Of a DNA stretch of 41,638 nt, positions 9,333 to 38,683 are shown piece after piece. Each line of letters starts with the position of its first letter. Within the stretch, counting starts at the first letter, position 1. Where the stretch lies: IMG/VR virus record IMGVR_UViG_3300045257_000351, positions 1 through 41,638 of that record; one strand, given 5' to 3'. The stretch comes from a virus. The position numbers were made by a program, and so were the translations under genes. Below the pieces are notes generated by a model. The model was given only the letters and a program-made list of their open reading frames with translations, had not been told where the DNA came from and made no database searches.

Positions 9333-12300
9333 CTATTGTGTTTCAATACACCAGTAATTAAGAACAAAAATAGATGCAGCTCCAATAGCTACGCCAAAAT
9401 TAACATTCATTGTTGTCGTTGTACTTGGTGATTGTGGAACCGTTGAAAGTGTTCCACTCACAGAACCTAGAATACAATTTGGCGCATTCGTGTGAGCATG
9501 ATTAAATGTAAGCTGACAATATGATCCAGTTGATATTCCTATTGTCCCCGTATCTATCGTGATCTGTCCCGTATCATCTGTAGCGCTCGCAATTGTGCAA
9601 GTAGCGCCAGTACCAGCAGCAGGTTGAACAGCAACAGTGGGCGCGCTAGTTGAAGATAGTGCACTCACAATATGCCCATCAACTAATCTGATTTGACCCA
9701 CGCCACCTAAAGCAGAAGTCTCAAGATTAATATTACCCGCTATACCAGCGCCAAAAGGAGCGCCAGCCGAAAGATTTAAACTACCTCCATTATCAGCAGA
9801 AGGTCCTGGTGGAGTGCCTGGAAATATTGAAATATCTGCACCAACACCATCAGTTGACCTAGCTGTGGAAATGTTCATCGGAGCATCGACCGCATACACG
9901 TTTTGTGTATAGACATTTGAAAACTCATTCGTGAAGCTTCCCATTTGATAGGCTGCATTTAATAAAGGAATTGTATCTGACCCAAGAATAACTTTACCTG
10001 CCTGCCCTGCCCCAAATGGATCTGCTCCTGAAATATTGACATTTCCACCATTATCATCAGATGGTCCCGGTGGAGTGCCCGGTTTAATATTTATATCATG
10101 CCCTGTTGCATCTGCTACTTCTTGAGTCTTTAAATTCAAAGGATTGTCAGTAGCCGTTATATTAAAAGTATAAAGACCCATCCAATTGGCTGAATTATTT
10201 CCAAGCTGAACAGTGCCAGTTGAAGCTGGATTAATGTCAGCATTTACAGCAGTTGAAGCTAAGTTTGATAGTGCAGTATTAGCTCCACCGCCAACACCAC
10301 ATGCTTGCCAAGATCCATGTCCTAAAGTATCGGTGGAAGTCCAACAATATCCAGATGTGCCCTCTGTTCCATCAGTGAAAGCAATCTTTCCACGAGTTCC
10401 TGCCCCGGTTGGAATTCCTGGAGACAATACGACGTCTCCTGAATTTTGAGTGGTTGTGATACCCGTTGTGATGATGCTATTCCCAGAAGGAAAGTTAGCT
10501 GAATTTCCATTTGCACCAGTGGTAATTACCGTATCTCCAGTGCCTGATGAGTTAGAAGCAGCATCTCCTGATCCAAAAGTAGCAACACCAGACCCACCAT
10601 TAGTAGTTCCTTGCCCTGTTCTTACATTTAGAGCGCCAGAAATATTATTGTCCGTATCGCCCGTTTCTATCGTAAGGGCATCAGAATTTACACCAGAAGT
10701 GTCTCCTGTTTTAACAAGATGAACACCCGCAGTTACTCCAAAAATAAGATCTTGGTTAATAGCTGTAGGGCTTGTGAGATTCGATAAAGTAAAGTTAGCC
10801 CCGCCACCACCACCGGCTGCTGCCAGAATATCAAGGGCTTGAGAGACATTGTTAGGCGCTGGAGACCAATTTCCAGGAACTGCTGGAAAATAACCAAGAC
10901 CAAAGGCATCGCTCACCCGATTGATCATTCCACCGTTGGTTATAACGACATTTGATGAATTTCTAAAGCCATCAAGTGTTGCTCCATAAAAAGCGTTGGC
11001 ACCGTCTACAAAAACTTCTTGAGAATTTAAGCAAGAATAACAAGCTACCTGCACAAAAGAACTGTTTGCCACGTTTCCATTTAAATGCAGCTCTTGAAAC
11101 ATTGCTGTTTGAACTAAGAAAGAAAACGTTACCGCATTGCTATTTACAGTGTCTGCATTAAAAATAAGAATCGGCAAAACTTTAGAATTAGAGTAGAAAA
11201 ACTGCCCATCCATATTTGTAATATTACCACCAGCAGTAAAGTCAGAATTATTAAGCAAAAATATAGATAAGCTAGTGCTTACAGGATTACTCTGAAAGGT
11301 AGTTGCTGCCGAATTATCCCATAAACAGTCTTGAACATAAAACAATGCTGAAGTTGCAGCACTTAGATCAACAACTTGCGCGTTTGATAATGCCATGAAA
11401 ATATCAACAAACCCACCTTCTGGAGTAGTTGAGCTATTCCATGTGGCATCTAAAGTAAATGCTCCAGAAAATGTAACCACAGCACCAACAGCTAATGCTG
11501 GATTCGGCGCAAAGAAGTTTGTTTCTCTTGGAAGCTCTCCCACAATAAAAACATAGGGCAAAAGATTAAAACTTGCCTCAGTGTATTGTCCAGGCGCCAC
11601 AGAAATAGCCCAATTATTGCCAAGACTAGCACTTGTTTTACTCTCGGCTCCTGTCAGTGTTAAGCATGGAAAATCAATTCTTTCAGCTAAACAAGTAGAA
11701 TCATTTCCAGCAAGAGAGACGTATACCGTATGATTGATTGTGAAGCTACTTGCTTTATTGTTAAAAGTCGTCCAGTCAGCAGCACTCAAAAGCCCTGGCT
11801 GAGATCCAGAAGCTGTTTGCACATTAACTGTAACATTTGGACCTACTGTGGAATTAGCACCTGATCCTACAGACACTCCAGTCGTAGCGGTAGATATGCT
11901 CCCCTTTGTTTGAGCGGGTTCCTTGGAATTGAATGTGGACCAATCAGCCGATGATAAATATCCATTCACTGAGCTTGTTGCTACCGGGATAGAAAACACA
12001 CCAGCAGTATCTACTAGTGGAGATGTAGCGCTCACAGACCCCTGAGCTCTTGCATTAGTAAAATAAAGATTAGACCCTTCAGGCACAACGCTTGTATTTA
12101 ATGTTTGAAAGCTCTTATCCCCCCTCCAATATTGGAGAGTAGTTCCTGATGAAATCGCTGGTTCTTTAGAATTAAAGGTAGACCAATCTGTGGAACTTAA
12201 ATATCCATTTACGCTTGATGTAGCTACAGGAATTGAAATATTTGGCGTTGCTCCACCAGAACTTAAAATAGGAGAGCTTGTAGTTACAGATGTCACAGCT

Positions 12301-24098: not shown

Positions 24099-25646
24099 TT
24101 AAGTATCTTCAGGTACCATAATTTGCCCCTGCATCGGCCTCAACTTTCCCGTGACGCTAAGCCCCTTAAAATAGTAGACACCTTCGATTTTGGCAGGAAG
24201 CAAACTTTGCCCTGCCAAGCTTTTCCCCGAAATCGCCTCATAAAACTTAATCTTCCCCATTCTGGGCATCCGACTGTATGTGTCACGATGCCACAAAACA
24301 TACACACGCCACAGCGCGCTACGCTCTAATTTTGATTTATCGTCCATTTTTAATTCTACAACTTCACCCTGTTCGATCTCATCTACAAATAAAGCGATGC
24401 TGTCATGTTCCATCTGCCATTTTTTCATCTTTTCTCTGCCCGATAATGGGGTAAAATAGTGACCATTTTCCCCTAATACTTCGGATAGCCCATCAAGTGC
24501 GAAGTTAAGAACTCCAACAGGGCAGGTTTGAAATACCTCATTAGCGAAGTCTTTAGAATAGCTCCCCTGAGCCGTGAACCCTGATACTTCAATAAAGGTC
24601 CACCGTCTTGTATGCGCCCCAGATCCCTTCTCGTATGTGGCGGGGATATCGTTTCCTCCGAAGACATGAACCGCTGGCAGGGGAGCCATGATGGCAGTCT
24701 TAAATTTCCTATCAATACGAATTGGATATCTGTCTTCAATCTTCTTGATATGGGCATCATCAATCGGTTCACGTAGGTTCACTTCCGTAACTATATTTAC
24801 AAGTTTCCCTGCCATGGATTCCATCAAGAAGCCTTTGAACTCTGATGGATCCACACTAGACATATTGTTTTTATGAACCAGTTTGGCAGCCCCCATGATG
24901 AGAGAAGTTTTCCCTGTGCCTCCTGGGCCATGAATCATGAACAAGTGAGGGAAAATCGGTGCCAAGCAGCCGCCGTACATTTGCCTTAAAGCTTTGATCT
25001 TCTCGGCTTTGTCATCAGCCTTATCGAAGATTCGATCAAGCATGGCTTCAAATTCAGGATTCCTAATTGACCTGGTTGTATCGTATTCGATTGGGATCAT
25101 ACTTGTGCAATAATCTCCCCTGTTGTGCGGTTTAAACTTCATGAGCCATGAACCATGCTCCTTAAAGATATGTAACGTGCCGTTGAGAAAGTTCACTAAG
25201 TAGGGGTTAAGAATGAAGAGCGAGCTTGGCGATTTAGGGATCATGGTTGATTTGCGAAAGAGCTTAAGCACAGATTCAGCTTTTGCTTGTGTTGCTTTGA
25301 AGCCACAGAGAGTGTGGATTTGAGTGATGATGTTCCCTATGGCAAAGTCATCCATCTCTTGCCAGTAGTTGTCTTTGTATAAGAATAAGCTTCCCTCACT
25401 TTGGCACAAGATTCCGTCGTAGTATTTCACGAGTTCGTTTGCTATTTCAAACTCAGGCGGAAGGATGGGGTTTCCCTGTTTGTTGTATTTGATGTTCATG
25501 GGCTTTATGCCATTAACATAGTGAGCTAGTGGTTCATTGGTGGGTGGGGTGACTTGTGGTAGTAGGGGATTTTGAATGAAGGCCTTTAGCTTTTCAAGAC
25601 CTTCGGGTTGTTGCATCAGATCGTTGGCATCAGTTTGCTTTTTCAT
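24099..25646 (-). CDS. SF3 (D5-like) replicative helicase
   Basis: 515 aa. The N-terminal 200 residues match a D5_N-like domain (LFLYKDNYWQEMDD, LFILNPYLVNFLNGTL). The SF3 ATPase starts with HGPGGTGKTS (residues 239-248, Lys246), followed by a Walker B-type segment around VNIVTEVN. The sensor segment HVFGGNDIP precedes the Arg-rich HTRRWTFIEV. A winged-helix-like C-terminus follows. It unwinds DNA at the replication fork with the Toprim primase, which overlaps it by 4 nt upstream. In P4-type proteins primase and helicase are fused; here they are separate. Confidence 0.85.
   Translation of the reverse strand: MKKQTDANDLMQQPEGLEKLKAFIQNPLLPQVTPPTNEPLAHYVNGIKPMNIKYNKQGNPILPPEFEIANELVKYYDGILCQSEGSLFLYKDNYWQEMDDFAIGNIITQIHTLCGFKATQAKAESVLKLFRKSTMIPKSPSSLFILNPYLVNFLNGTLHIFKEHGSWLMKFKPHNRGDYCTSMIPIEYDTTRSIRNPEFEAMLDRIFDKADDKAEKIKALRQMYGGCLAPIFPHLFMIHGPGGTGKTSLIMGAAKLVHKNNMSSVDPSEFKGFLMESMAGKLVNIVTEVNLREPIDDAHIKKIEDRYPIRIDRKFKTAIMAPLPAVHVFGGNDIPATYEKGSGAHTRRWTFIEVSGFTAQGSYSKDFANEVFQTCPVGVLNFALDGLSEVLGENGHYFTPLSGREKMKKWQMEHDSIALFVDEIEQGEVVELKMDDKSKLERSALWRVYVLWHRDTYSRMPRMGKIKFYEAISGKSLAGQSLLPAKIEGVYYFKGLSVTGKLRPMQGQIMVPEDT
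24567..24587 (+). repeat. Heptamer array in helicase gene
   Basis: CTGAGCC, GTGAACC, CTGATAC in 7-nt phase. Confidence 0.65.
24923..24943 (+). repeat. Heptamer array in helicase gene
   Basis: CTGGGCC, ATGAATC, ATGAACA in 7-nt phase, just upstream of the Walker A codons on this strand. Confidence 0.6.
25141..25161 (+). repeat. Heptamer array in helicase gene
   Basis: ATGAGCC, ATGAACC, ATGCTCC in 7-nt phase. It encodes the HGSWLMK segment on the opposite strand. Confidence 0.7.
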
Positions 25647-26593
25647 GGGGTGTCCTTAGGTGTAGTTTCTTGGTCAAAAGTAGGGATAACGATGAAGCCC
25701 TGAACCATGGCCGCTGCTTCATTAGCTAGACGTACACCCGGATTGCCTGGAACATGAGCGTCATTATCAGCTACGAGAATAATCTTAGAGTCGGGATGAC
25801 TTCCCCTCAAGGCCAAAGCCGTGGCTTTAAGATTAGTTGCAGAAAAAGCACAAACTACAGCCCAATGAGAATAGTTATCATTTAGAGCCATAGCTACTGA
25901 GCAAGCAGTTGCGAACCCTTCACATATATAGATAGAGTCTGGATGTCCACTAGCTGAGGGCTGAAGCATGAACCATAAACCGTCAACCCGAGCTCCTGGC
26001 ACAAACGATTTAAAACCATCATCTTGAATTCGCTGGTAGTTCCACACGACACCTTGCTCATCGTGCATAGGGATAATCAGATCTGTACCTATGGTAAGTG
26101 AACGTGACAGAATTGCTCCATGCGTTTGAGTTATGCCCTTGTTTTTAAGATATTTACTAGGTCTCCCCCATTTTTGCGCAAGTATTTTATTAAGATCCGC
26201 CACAACGCTAAGCTTCTTCTCTTCCTGAAGCGCCAGTTTCTCCGCAAGATATGCGGAGTTTGCAAGCTCAATCTCCGCACGCACTTTAGGGTCACTCATG
26301 TCTAAGCCCTCAGTGAGAGTGCGTTTGTCTTTTGTCTTCCAATCACCGAATGTCACTCGCCGCTGATTTGGCCCCACACTTTCCCCTATGTACCAGCCCT
26401 TGAACTTATCTGTTTTGATATTTTTCATAGTGCCATCAAGCACTAGATCACTTTCAGAGATGCCTTTAGATAATAGAAATTCTTTGATTTCGCTCAAAAC
26501 TATTCCCCTCATGTTTGGATTTGTGATACCCCTGAACCATAAACCCTGAAGAAAATCCAAAGCCTTGTCAATAATCTCAAGAATATTTTTCAT
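25643..26593 (-). CDS. Toprim-domain DNA primase
   Basis: 316 aa. The Toprim core is IYICEGFATACSVAMA with catalytic Glu225, then KIILVADNDAH with D276 and D278. Residues 165-215 (IIPMHDEQGVVWNYQRI) are the RNA-polymerase-like domain of Toprim_3-type phage primases. Residues 62-85 (KGWYIG, FGDWK) belong to the N-terminal module common in these proteins. I see no zinc-finger domain at the N-terminus. It makes RNA primers for the downstream family A polymerase. Its stop overlaps the helicase start (ATGA). Confidence 0.85.
   Translation of the reverse strand: MKNILEIIDKALDFLQGLWFRGITNPNMRGIVLSEIKEFLLSKGISESDLVLDGTMKNIKTDKFKGWYIGESVGPNQRRVTFGDWKTKDKRTLTEGLDMSDPKVRAEIELANSAYLAEKLALQEEKKLSVVADLNKILAQKWGRPSKYLKNKGITQTHGAILSRSLTIGTDLIIPMHDEQGVVWNYQRIQDDGFKSFVPGARVDGLWFMLQPSASGHPDSIYICEGFATACSVAMALNDNYSHWAVVCAFSATNLKATALALRGSHPDSKIILVADNDAHVPGNPGVRLANEAAAMVQGFIVIPTFDQETTPKDTP
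25961..25988 (+). repeat. Four-unit heptamer array in primase gene
   Basis: CTGAAGC, ATGAACC, ATAAACC, GTCAACC in perfect 7-nt phase. A shorter copy (CTGAACC, ATGGCCG) lies at 25700-25713. Confidence 0.75.
26525..26552 (+). repeat. Heptamer array near primase start
   Basis: GATACCC, CTGAACC, ATAAACC, CTGAAGA in 7-nt phase. Confidence 0.65.
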
Positions 26594-34458: not shown

Positions 34459-34898
34459 TGGATATGACAATTGATGAATTAATGACTTTGTGTAAAGAAA
34501 TAAAAAATTCACGTGATAAAGTGGATGAGTTAAAAAAAATATATCAGGATGCGAATGCTGCGTGTGAAGAGCTTGAAGTAAAATTGTTAGGGGAATTAAA
34601 AAAACCTAGGGATGGACATCCAAAAGGACTTAAGTCTTTCCAAGACGGTGAATTTAAATTTACATGCGTTGAAAAGAAATCAATTACAGTTCCAAAGGGT
34701 GATGACCGTGAAGAATTTTTCGAATATCTTAAAGAAATCGGACATTACGAGGCACTCATCACGGTGGATTCTAGGGCACTTAATTCCTGGTACACTCAAG
34801 AAGATAAAGCTGCAAAAGCTAGGGGCGAGCCCTATGCTGTGGTCCCAGGACTCGCACTTCCAACATCTAAAGAAATTTTATCAGTTAGAAAAGCATGA
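34458..34898 (+). CDS. Coiled-coil phage protein, possible replication accessory
   Basis: 146 aa. Residues 5-48 are a coiled coil (DELMTLCKEIKNSRDKVDEL and on). A small domain follows with FQDGEFKFTCVEKKSITVPK and FFEYLKEIGHYEALITVDSR, a pattern seen in hypothetical proteins placed before the polymerase in podoviruses. It overlaps the previous gene by one base. A role in recombination or end protection is possible by position, but I see no motif that proves it. Confidence 0.65.
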   Translation: MDMTIDELMTLCKEIKNSRDKVDELKKIYQDANAACEELEVKLLGELKKPRDGHPKGLKSFQDGEFKFTCVEKKSITVPKGDDREEFFEYLKEIGHYEALITVDSRALNSWYTQEDKAAKARGEPYAVVPGLALPTSKEILSVRKA

Positions 34899-34923
34899 AC
34901 CAATACCCACAAAGGATGAATAT

Positions 34924-35712
34924 ATGAAACAAGACGTCACAAAAGAAGTAGTTAAAAAATCAGCTCCCCAAGCAATCGCAGTTATGCAGCCCAGACAATC
35001 TGTAGTAGATAGCTCAGATATTGTTGTGCCAAAGATTATGTTAGCCCAAGGCCTTTCTCAGAGTGTGGCAGATAATAAAGCTAAGATGGGAGATATGACA
35101 AATTCCCTAACAGGCGTTGTTGTTGGAGGATCTGAAAAGCCTCTAACATTTATACCTATTACAATTAAGAAATATTGGAAGAATTTTGAGAAAGTAGGAA
35201 ACAAGCGTGCTTTTAGAGGTGTTGAAGCTTTCACAGGCGCTAATGCCAGACGTCCGCTAACTGAGCAGCTTCCTGCCCAGGGAAATCCAAGTCAGATGGC
35301 AGAATGGTCGCATGATCTAGTTCTTGATGTTTTTGGTTTTACAGAAGATGACGTGCAAGATCCGGTAGCTCTTCCCTCTGCAATTTCATTCTCTCGCACT
35401 TCTTATAAAGCTGGACAAAAAGTTATGACCCACTTCGCCTCACTAGAGGCAAGTGAGGTCCAAGTTCCCTACTACCAATATATGATGGAGCTTTCTTGCT
35501 TTAAGAAACAAAATGATAAAGGAATTTTTTATTGTTTTGAAGTAAAGCCGAAGCTTGAGGGTAGCCGCATGACAAAGACTCCTGAGAAGTATTACTCAAA
35601 GATTGAGCGCTGGTCTAAGATCCTAAATGACAATTCAAGAAGTATCGTAGTGGATGATTCAGATGAAGAGACAGAAGCTGTTTCGACACCTATTGATGAT
35701 TCACGATTTTAA
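34924..35712 (+). CDS. Candidate single-stranded DNA-binding-type protein
   Basis: 262 aa. I choose ATG at 34924 with AGGA upstream; the open frame extends 104 codons further but overlaps the previous gene. Residues 36-75 (VVPKIMLAQGLSQSVADNKA, MGDMTNSLTGVVVGG) belong to a conserved phage protein type found beside polymerases. The C-terminus is acidic and ends in Phe (DDSDEETEAVSTPIDDSRF), as in T7 gp2.5 and bacterial SSB, whose acidic tail and final Phe recruit replication partners. The ssDNA-binding role is inference; no OB-fold signature is obvious. Confidence 0.55.
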   Translation: MKQDVTKEVVKKSAPQAIAVMQPRQSVVDSSDIVVPKIMLAQGLSQSVADNKAKMGDMTNSLTGVVVGGSEKPLTFIPITIKKYWKNFEKVGNKRAFRGVEAFTGANARRPLTEQLPAQGNPSQMAEWSHDLVLDVFGFTEDDVQDPVALPSAISFSRTSYKAGQKVMTHFASLEASEVQVPYYQYMMELSCFKKQNDKGIFYCFEVKPKLEGSRMTKTPEKYYSKIERWSKILNDNSRSIVVDDSDEETEAVSTPIDDSRF

Positions 35713-35720
35713 GGAGAACT

Positions 35721-35888
35721 ATGGCGAAAGTCATGAAGGCTGGGAGTACACCATTTTATGTGTACCTCCCTCAGAAACTAAAGACTGAGATTGAGCAAAT
35801 GGCGACCGATAAGGAGTATACCTTATCGGCATTTACTCGTGTCGTATTTGAGGATTACATGAAAAAGCGCAGGAAAATGTCTAAATGA
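35721..35888 (+). CDS. Ribbon-helix-helix (Arc/CopG-type) DNA-binding protein
   Basis: 55 aa with AAGGAG before ATG at 35721. The strand PFYVYLPQKLKTEIEQMA, the turn, and the second helix LSAFTRVVFEDYMKK match the ribbon-helix-helix fold. The basic N-terminus and the C-terminal KKRRKMSK fit DNA contact. It overlaps the polymerase start (ATGA), so it may autoregulate the replication genes. The inverted repeats at 26669-26687 and 21930-21949 are candidate operators, untested. Confidence 0.8.
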   Translation: MAKVMKAGSTPFYVYLPQKLKTEIEQMATDKEYTLSAFTRVVFEDYMKKRRKMSK

Positions 35889-38683
35889 AGATAGTAACGC
35901 CTGAGAACTTTGATGCTTGCATTGAAGAGCTTTTAAAAGAAGATTTTTTAGCAGTTGATACTGAAACTACAGGCCTTCAGCCATGGAAAAATGATAGACT
36001 ATTTTCCATTCAATTCTCTAATTCTACTGAGGATTATTATTTTAATTTCCAAGAATATACCACGGGTGAAGCAGTTCTTAAATTCACTGACATTTGTGAG
36101 CTACAGCCGCTTTTTTATTTAAAAACTATTTTCATACAAAACGCTAAATTTGATATGGCCTTTCTATGGAAAGAAGGCATTAGGTTTGATAGAGCAGATA
36201 TTCATTGCACAGAAGTTGCTGGGCGACTTCTAAGATCTGATCACTTATCATATTCCCTAGATAATCAATCTAAGCGAGAACTTGGGGAATCTAAAGATGA
36301 CCGTGTGATGGAATGGCTTAAAGAACATAAGGCCTTTACTTCTATAAAAATTCCAGGAAAAGATACAGTTTACAAATCATACCACTTTGAAAAGGTGCCT
36401 TTTGAACTCATCTCTTCCTACGGTTGTCTTGATACAAGACTTTGCTACCGATTAGGGATGAAGCAAATTGGACAGTTGCAGGCTTTAAAGGCAGAAGCTC
36501 GCACTGGACAAAAATCAGTCTTTGATGTTTATGTGATGGAGAAAAATCTTACTCACGCTTGTCTTGAAATTGAGAGAGTGGGCATTAAAATAGATGAGGA
36601 TTATTGCAATGAAGCCATCGAGTTCGAGGCCAAGCGTATTCATAAAGCGCAGGAAGAGTTCACAAATATTACAGGAAAAGAACTTACAGATTCAGGAAAA
36701 TTCCTTGGGCCCATATTCGAAGAGCTTGGTTTTAAACCAGGAAAAACCGACACGGGTGAAGACGCAGTCACCGATTCATTTCTATCCAGCGTATCGCATC
36801 CGATCTCTAAAGTAGTTAGGGAATATAGAGATGCTTCAAAGCGTGCAAATACTTATTTCAAATCATTTTTATATTACTCAGATACTGAAGGCGTTATCCA
36901 TCCAAATATGAAGCAAGCGGGAACTTCTACAGGAAGATTCTCTTATATAGACCCAAACTGCCTTAGTATGGATACTGAAGTATTAACAAAAAATGGGTGG
37001 GTAAATGGGGATAATTATGCTGGGCAAGAAATTTGTGTATATAATAATGGCAAATTAACATGGGAAGTTCCCTCTAATAAGTTCATATCCTCTAAAAAAA
37101 TACAAAGTATGATTACTGTAAAAAATGAGCATTTTGACATGAGGATGACAGATACCCATAGGGTACTGCATAGAAATAGAAAGACTCTAAAAGAGCTAGT
37201 CACAGAAGCGAAAAACTTTCCCAAGGATTCTCACATAATTCATGGAGGATTGCTCGAAGGGACGGTGGAAGAAAATCCATCACTACTAAAACTTCTAATA
37301 GCTATTCAAGCAGACGGACACATAATTAACAATAAATCGTCAACCAAAGTATCTTTCGAATTTATAAAAGAACGAAAAATAAAAAGGCTTATCTCCATAT
37401 TAGAAGGTTTACCTTATGACTATAGCGTGGGCAATGGTAAGAGGTGGCGAGTCGTTGTTGATATAACAAAAATAAAAGACAACATGTATCTGCATGAAAA
37501 AAAACTAACATTTAATTTTCTTATATTAACAAGAGAGCTACGGACACTAGTATTCGAAGAGTTAAAGTTTTGGGACGGTGATTCGACTAGAAAAGAGTTT
37601 TCATATTGCTCAAGGCATATCCAGAATATGGATGTTGTCCAAGCAATAGCGGCATCCATTGGGTATAGATGTCACATATACAGGCATTCCAACAAAAAAA
37701 ATGAAGCTTATGTGGCCTCATTTGTGCGCAGGGATTACAGTGGCACTGCTAATAGCATAGTTAAAAAAGAAAAAAGTAAGGAAAAAGTTTGGTGTGTTAA
37801 GGTTTCCTCTGGATTTTTTTTAGCGCGAAGGGGAAGCGATACCTTTATAACAGGAAATTGCCAAAATATCCCGGCTGAAGATTCGTCATCCCTCCCGGTA
37901 CGTCGAGCCTTCGTCCCAAGGCTGGGATATTTATTTTTATCTATAGATTATAATCAAATGGAATTTAGAATGATGCTAGACGAAGCAGGCCAGTTTGATT
38001 TGATTGAAAAGATCAAAGAAGGGCATGATCCCCACCAAGCGACCGCTGATCTAACAGGTCTTACAAGAAGCGCCTCTAAAACTTTAAACTTCGGACTTCT
38101 CTATGGTATGGGAATAGCTAAACTTGCTATTGCTCTAGGATGTACATTTGAGGAAGCAAAATCATTTAAGAAAAAGTATTTCAGAGCCTTACCAATGGTA
38201 GAGAACTTTATTGTTCAATGCTCAGGAGCCGTGAAGCAGAGGCTCATGCAATCCCCCGGCAATGGTTGGGTAAGAACGTGGCTAGGAAGACGTGCTTATT
38301 TTAATGACGAAAATTTCGCATATAGGGCAGCTAATTCAAAAGTGCAAGGTGGCGCGGCAGATTTAGTAAAAACTGTGATGGTCATTTTGCATGAATTTTT
38401 ACTAAAATATCAGACAAGAATGGTTCTTCAGATTCATGATGAGATTGTATTTGAACTTCATGAAGATGAAATGGAGCTAATCCCCAAGATTATGCACATT
38501 ATGGAAAATACCTATCCATACAAATCTTTGCCCTTGACGTGCTCTATGAGCTTTAGCCTAAAATCTCTCTATGATCTTCAAGAAGGAGATCCTAGGGGAT
38601 ACATTGGCAAAGAAGCAAGAAACGATTTTCAAGGAAAGAATAATGCCGTTTTTGAAGCGCTTACCAAACACGTGGTTAGTTAA
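35885..38683 (+). CDS. polA: Family A DNA polymerase precursor with intein
   Basis: 932 aa precursor. The 3'-5' exonuclease domain has VDTETTG (D25, E27), QNAKFD (N86, D90) and YGCLD (Y179, D183). Residues 359-658 are an intein, so the spliced enzyme is 632 aa. Polymerase motif A is SIDYNQMEF (D688), motif B is R728-xxx-K732-xxx-FGLLYG (736-741), and motif C is HDE at 851-853. The extein junction is DPN/CQNIP, next to the conserved DPNLQNIP loop of Pol I enzymes. It is the replicative polymerase. It is coupled to the RHH gene and is overlapped by the nuclease gene downstream. There is no 5'-3' exonuclease domain. Confidence 0.95.
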   Translation: MKIVTPENFDACIEELLKEDFLAVDTETTGLQPWKNDRLFSIQFSNSTEDYYFNFQEYTTGEAVLKFTDICELQPLFYLKTIFIQNAKFDMAFLWKEGIRFDRADIHCTEVAGRLLRSDHLSYSLDNQSKRELGESKDDRVMEWLKEHKAFTSIKIPGKDTVYKSYHFEKVPFELISSYGCLDTRLCYRLGMKQIGQLQALKAEARTGQKSVFDVYVMEKNLTHACLEIERVGIKIDEDYCNEAIEFEAKRIHKAQEEFTNITGKELTDSGKFLGPIFEELGFKPGKTDTGEDAVTDSFLSSVSHPISKVVREYRDASKRANTYFKSFLYYSDTEGVIHPNMKQAGTSTGRFSYIDPNCLSMDTEVLTKNGWVNGDNYAGQEICVYNNGKLTWEVPSNKFISSKKIQSMITVKNEHFDMRMTDTHRVLHRNRKTLKELVTEAKNFPKDSHIIHGGLLEGTVEENPSLLKLLIAIQADGHIINNKSSTKVSFEFIKERKIKRLISILEGLPYDYSVGNGKRWRVVVDITKIKDNMYLHEKKLTFNFLILTRELRTLVFEELKFWDGDSTRKEFSYCSRHIQNMDVVQAIAASIGYRCHIYRHSNKKNEAYVASFVRRDYSGTANSIVKKEKSKEKVWCVKVSSGFFLARRGSDTFITGNCQNIPAEDSSSLPVRRAFVPRLGYLFLSIDYNQMEFRMMLDEAGQFDLIEKIKEGHDPHQATADLTGLTRSASKTLNFGLLYGMGIAKLAIALGCTFEEAKSFKKKYFRALPMVENFIVQCSGAVKQRLMQSPGNGWVRTWLGRRAYFNDENFAYRAANSKVQGGAADLVKTVMVILHEFLLKYQTRMVLQIHDEIVFELHEDEMELIPKIMHIMENTYPYKSLPLTCSMSFSLKSLYDLQEGDPRGYIGKEARNDFQGKNNAVFEALTKHVVS
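36959..37858 (+). other. Intein coding region with LAGLIDADG homing endonuclease
   Basis: 300 codons. The first residue is Cys359 (CLSMDTEVLT, block A). Block B is TDTH (422-425). The endonuclease has LLIAIQADGH (470-479) and FWDGDS (562-567), two LAGLIDADG-type motifs. Block F is VWCVKVSSGFFLARR, and the last residues are FITGN before extein Cys659. The penultimate residue is Gly rather than the usual His, with Asn and Cys+1 kept. Splicing restores motif A to C of the polymerase. The coding frame is intact on both sides. It is probably a mobile, homing-competent intein. Confidence 0.93.

Follow-up and report, generated by a model that had tools for sequence, protein, structure and literature searches.

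A DNA stretch of 41,638 nucleotides (positions 1 to 41,638 of IMG/VR virus record IMGVR_UViG_3300045257_000351; the window) carried a phage family A (Pol I-type) DNA polymerase gene interrupted by what we read, with a probability of roughly 0.93, as a mobile intein of class 1 carrying a double-motif LAGLIDADG homing endonuclease, one that would both splice and home. As to sequence and predicted fold, the identification of an intein with a double-motif LAGLIDADG endonuclease was firm; this intein was real, intact, and of an ordinary, known kind, and its insertion site was a recurrent one in polymerases.

The polymerase gene and the insertion point

The polymerase ORF occupied window positions 35885-38683 (+) as a single open frame of 932 aa, corresponding by computation to 632 aa once the 300-aa insert was removed. 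The exteins matched Pfam DNA_pol_A (3.1e-65) and DNA_pol_A_exo1 (7.9e-11), with the 3'-5' exonuclease domain near the start of the 932-aa frame and DNA_pol_A towards its end, and the motifs that mark a family A polymerase with 3'-5' exonuclease were all found: Exo I (DTETTG), Exo II (NAKFD), and Exo III (YGCLD), plus catalytic motifs A, B, and C (see the list below). Assignment as DpoZ (aminoadenine polymerase) was rejected, the NCBIfam score being 219.6 against a curated cut-off of 500 bits. The gene and its insert had the following components:

35885..36958 (+): N-extein, 358 aa, containing the 3'-5' exonuclease domain and the first part of the family A polymerase
36929..36958 (+): conserved loop TGRFSYIDPN directly before the insertion (E. 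coli R668..N675)
36959..37858 (+): intein, 300 aa, a Hint splicing domain with an inserted double-motif LAGLIDADG endonuclease
36959..36961 (+): Cys1, splicing nucleophile, block A; invariant (58/58 aligned inteins)
37139..37174 (+): block B MRMTDTHRVLHR, with TxxH as T64 and H67; H67 invariant (58/58)
37274..37330 (+): LAGLIDADG motif 1 NPSLLKLLIAIQADGHIIN, catalytic D119; D in 54/58, E in 3/58; model helix 107-119
37544..37594 (+): LAGLIDADG motif 2 TLVFEELKFWDGDSTRK, catalytic D206; D in 56/58; model helix 192-206
37787..37831 (+): block F VWCVKVSSGFFLARR, Cys279 replacing the usual Asp; C279 in 57/58, R290 in 55/58
37838..37858 (+): block G DTFITGN, penultimate Gly299 and terminal Asn300; G299 in 57/58, N300 in 58/58
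37859..37861 (+): Cys+1, acceptor nucleophile, standing where intein-free relatives have Leu (E. coli L676)
37859..38683 (+): C-extein, palm and fingers, with motifs A (SIDYNQMEFR), B (RSASKTLNFGLLYG), and C (QIHDE)

The insert (36959-37858) comprised exactly 300 codons, with Cys first, Asn last, and Cys+1 next; it opened with CLSMDTEVLTKNGW and closed with RRGSDTFITGN, followed by CQNIP. When the polymerase was compared with the E. coli Klenow fragment by phmmer, the alignment fell into two blocks parting at DPN/QNIP, i.e., at N675/L676 (the slash marks the interrupted bond here and below). The first-pass annotation had placed a 300-aa intein at these positions, splitting a family A polymerase at DPN/CQNIP beside a strongly conserved loop, with intact polymerase catalytic motifs and a 632-aa product after excision; the exact boundaries, the Pfam matches, and the Klenow alignment break directly after TGRFSYIDPN bore out its placement, all of Exo I-III and motifs A, B, and C were found, and the length was computed correctly.

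Two IMG/VR relatives, L002 and L003, were intein-free at this bond and read uninterrupted through DPN-LQN (SDPNLQNIPKED and ADPNLQNVPAED), and the insertion was thus in frame and missing from homologues at the same bond, as expected of a class 1 intein. Their contigs were 43.8 and 44.8 kb, their polymerases were about 40% identical to the window polymerase overall, and the genes after the L002 polymerase corresponded by eye to the window genes, including the next minus-strand genes. Leu at position 676 was also found in more distant intein-free relatives. Four phage polymerases (L110, L111, L112, and L114) contained DPNCQNIP, with Cys but without an intein, and a Cys scar left by splicing is therefore tolerated in nature; these Cys sites could be either pre-adapted targets or scars of lost inteins.

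Two further gene calls in the window were noted. The overlapping ORFs at 24099-25646 and 25643-26593 (both -) each matched a different part of phage primase families, as though a primase had been divided between two genes. The ORF at 34612-35712 (+) matched the Pam3 phage gp34-like protein and overlapped the previous gene in another frame; its real start probably lies downstream of the listed ATG.

Intein anatomy, conservation, and predicted fold

The class 1 residues C1, C+1, N300, and T64xxH67 were all present. A class 3 assignment (Trp-Cys-Thr at B12, F4, and G5, and no nucleophile at position 1) was rejected, given the presence of Cys1 and of Val69 at B12, two residues after His67; the Cys279/Thr298 pair resembled the Cys-Thr part of the class 3 signature, two of its three residues. 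The window intein had Gly299 in place of the usual penultimate His, which is not defining for class 1, and its block F read VWC, with no His. In the 58-sequence alignment, Asp119, Asp206, Cys279, Arg290, and Gly299, all present in the window intein, each occurred in at least 54 of 58 sequences, and in a wider set of 79 scored inteins a penultimate Gly was found in 78 and the block F Cys in 76. The initial claim that all intein blocks were intact thus held for the core splicing residues and both aspartates but not for blocks F and G in full: Gly299 was not His, Cys279 was not Asp, and block F had no His.

A phage RDF intein with a penultimate Gly splices fast and to completion, and its Gly-to-His substitution slows splicing (Kelley et al., PMC5050341). 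This intein, from mycobacteriophage Bethlehem gp51, resembled the window intein in being class 1, in having an endonuclease, and in its penultimate Gly, but it lay in another host gene; it was compared by its published description (PMC5050341). Because of their family-wide occurrence and the splicing of that penultimate-Gly intein, Gly299 and Cys279 are a trait of the intein family rather than signs of decay.

Cys279, together with Cys1 and Cys+1, could also be taken as parts of a conditional switch, in which redox or DNA state slows splicing and so times polymerase activation. We regard this as very unlikely: the block F Cys was family-wide (57/58), and a mutant phage intein gave a disulfide-bonded precursor, but the wild-type penultimate-Gly intein spliced completely (PMC5050341), and nothing in the analysis ties splicing to a signal.

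The AlphaFold2 model of the intein (mean pLDDT 96.0, pTM 0.92) showed a predicted Hint fold, together with two helices ending at D119 and D206 in an I-DmoI-like predicted fold, as in monomeric double-motif LAGLIDADG proteins. Foldseek matched it to the TliVMA intein (2.1e-15), PI-SceI (1.4e-12), PI-PfuI (6e-12), and the monomeric double-motif I-DmoI (5e-7), as well as to inteins in viral ribonucleotide reductase and DNA polymerase records; the double-motif endonuclease named in the first-pass annotation was thereby recovered from motifs, predicted fold, and structural matches alike. PI-PfuI, TliVMA, and PI-SceI shared the overall Hint plus double LAGLIDADG architecture with the window intein, but they were only 9-14% identical to it, with chains of 366-454 residues versus 300. 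To our knowledge, these three lack the Gly-Asn end and block F Cys of the window intein family. No Pfam model matched the intein alone, and NCBIfam and PDB sequence searches with it gave nothing meaningful.

The insertion was not a chance one, in view of its frame, its precise ends, the invariant family residues, and the high-confidence predicted Hint and LAGLIDADG folds. The points counted against an intein were the missing penultimate His, the missing block F Asp and His, the missing Pfam match, and the single contig, the window intein being known from one metagenomic contig in a single assembly. The open frame throughout would also suit a retained, unspliced insertion domain of the polymerase. 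Such a domain, however, would part R668 from Q677 in the conserved loop ahead of motif A, and the family, fold, and boundaries were those of inteins; we consider it highly improbable.

Intein relatives and their host genes

Relatives of the intein were reached by PHROGs, tblastn, and fold comparison. The tblastn relatives were inteins in phage NrdA, NrdB, PhoH, RecD-like, and primase genes, and another related intein lay in an RtcB-like gene (named from reading its sequence). A scan of viral contigs with only the window intein sequence as the query gave zero confirmed relatives, whereas an alignment query did find them, and 80 IMG/VR loci were kept (L030-L109).

Among these 80, family A polymerases were the commonest host gene: a small polymerase HMM matched 46 C-exteins among those examined (weakest E=0.00055), a screen rather than a census since the HMM was built with four of the same C-exteins. 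The polymerase inteins occupied five points, assigned by eye and by pattern from the junction sequence: (i) TGRW/S, with 22 distinct inteins forming one well-supported group; (ii) PN/C, with 4; (iii) DIH/T, with 4; (iv) HG/S in motif B, with 6; and (v) DY/C or DL/S in motif A, with 3. A different intein was observed in the ORF of L113 (pattern match at 9759-9781, -): it had an HNH-like stretch, a canonical THN end, and Thr+1, and it lay directly ahead of TGRLSS, in a polymerase whose native residue at position 676 was Cys.

Inteins at the same bond in other polymerases

The suggestion that the DPN/CQNIP site be compared with known polymerase inteins proved fruitful: the site was also occupied in three or more further phage-type polymerases and lay between known group I intron sites (see below). 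The three further polymerases with an intein at the same bond, a lower bound, were those of L030, L006 (the same contig as L077), and L024. (i) L030 (IMGVR_UViG_3300010938_000009) had the same bond, RNPN/CQNLP, and the same TFITGN end, and its intein was the closest to that of the window (38% identity over all 300 residues), but its polymerase was far from the window polymerase (27% over 369 residues); this difference in identity points to movement of the intein between distant phages. (ii) L006/L077 (IMGVR 3300027498_000003) had a 298-aa intein at FPN/CQNIP. (iii) L024 (Gallionella MAG contig JAQTYN010000017.1) had a 321-aa intein at TPN/CQNIP. The latter two inteins were 24-26% identical to the window intein and shared with it the N/C bond before QNIP, the Gly-Asn end, and the block F Cys. 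A quick tree grouped the inteins of the window, L030, and L077 (SH-aLRT 88) and placed L024 elsewhere; constraining all four same-bond inteins into one clade was not rejected (p-AU 0.52).

In a pattern scan of bacterial genomes, most matches were not polymerases, L024 being one that was. A VHN/CQNIP pattern match was discarded, as it sat in an unrelated gene. In searches of the open-access literature, PolA inteins were named in general terms only, and no paper among the results named the N675/L676-equivalent bond as an intein site; an earlier naming may stand outside that literature.

The L006 intein (1841-2734, +) had lost both LAGLIDADG aspartates (119 = L, 206 = gap) but kept all splicing residues, and this loss represents the degenerate-endonuclease stage that the homing cycle predicts. 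It also shows that such a state exists at this very site, and the window intein might likewise be splicing-competent with an endonuclease already dead, retained because precise removal is hard. The composition of the window intein (GC 35% versus 38% and 40% in the exteins; GC3 31% versus 30% and 35%) was near that of its surroundings, consistent with long residence or with a donor of similar base composition. In the window intein, however, the two catalytic aspartates and the motifs around them were intact, and a dead endonuclease is accordingly judged unlikely, though well worth keeping in mind; an active homing endonuclease within a class 1 intein is the reading preferred here.

Group I introns at neighbouring positions

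Group I introns have been placed at site 674 in the polymerase genes of SPO1, SP82, Bastille, and Pf-WMP3 and at 676 in that of Xanthomonas phage phiL7 (PMC3428280), and Swithers 2009 placed the SPO1 intron at N675/L676 (PMC2814812). The phiL7 upstream exon frame ended in TGRLSSSDPNL, with the intron after or within the Leu codon of DPNL. The exons of the SPO1 record met at NEP/NAQQFP (P674/N675), one codon upstream of the published N675/L676, and the junction was shiftable up to 2 nt further on, AA being repeated at both junctions. The exon join was placed with an intron length that we take to be 882 nt, and the frame spliced accordingly was open for 925 aa.

The window intein bond thus fell between the two published intron sites, 674 and 676, within one codon, and the positional overlap of the intein bond and the intron sites was evident. 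The same DPNL codons were interrupted in both cases, but the introns are removed from RNA, encode HNH endonucleases, and leave no Cys, whereas the window intein would act at the protein level and has a LAGLIDADG endonuclease. We put forward, tentatively and as rather less than an even chance, that the DPN-LQN codons are a shared docking point reached independently by inteins and group I introns, which would be mutually exclusive there and in competition for a single short DNA target.

These introns at neighbouring bonds in SPO1 and phiL7 also lend some plausibility to the insert being itself a group I intron, or else an assembly chimera. The insert was, however, a multiple of three, fully coding, and predicted to adopt a Hint fold, and both flanks belonged to one polymerase in one gene order. 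Rfam gave no match in the window, but this absence says little on phage introns because the published intron in SPO1 gene 31 (L124 17242-20901) was likewise missed by Rfam at the gathering threshold. An intron or a chimera has next to no probability in our estimate.

Proposed splicing and homing, and significance

As the intein anatomy suggests, the 932-aa precursor would be translated whole, Cys1 would attack the Asn-Cys bond, Cys+1 would then take over the N-extein, and cyclisation of Asn300 would yield the 632-aa polymerase and the free 300-aa intein. The precursor should be inactive, because the insertion splits the conserved loop directly before motif A (R668 to Q677, which we take from Klenow work to be a DNA-contacting region), and imprecise loss of the intein would therefore be costly. 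During co-infection, the endonuclease would cut intein-free alleles at the conserved TGRxSxxDPN-LQNIP codons, and repair would copy the intein in, along with the Leu-to-Cys codon change required by splicing.

The window intein adds a clean and complete case to the little-described inteins that have invaded the active-site loops of Pol I-type polymerases in phages. Its uniform Gly-Asn end and block F Cys make the family useful for studying Asn cyclisation without the usual His, and the overlap of the insertion bond with the SPO1-type intron site makes it possible to test directly whether the insertion sites of self-splicing elements follow from target conservation alone.
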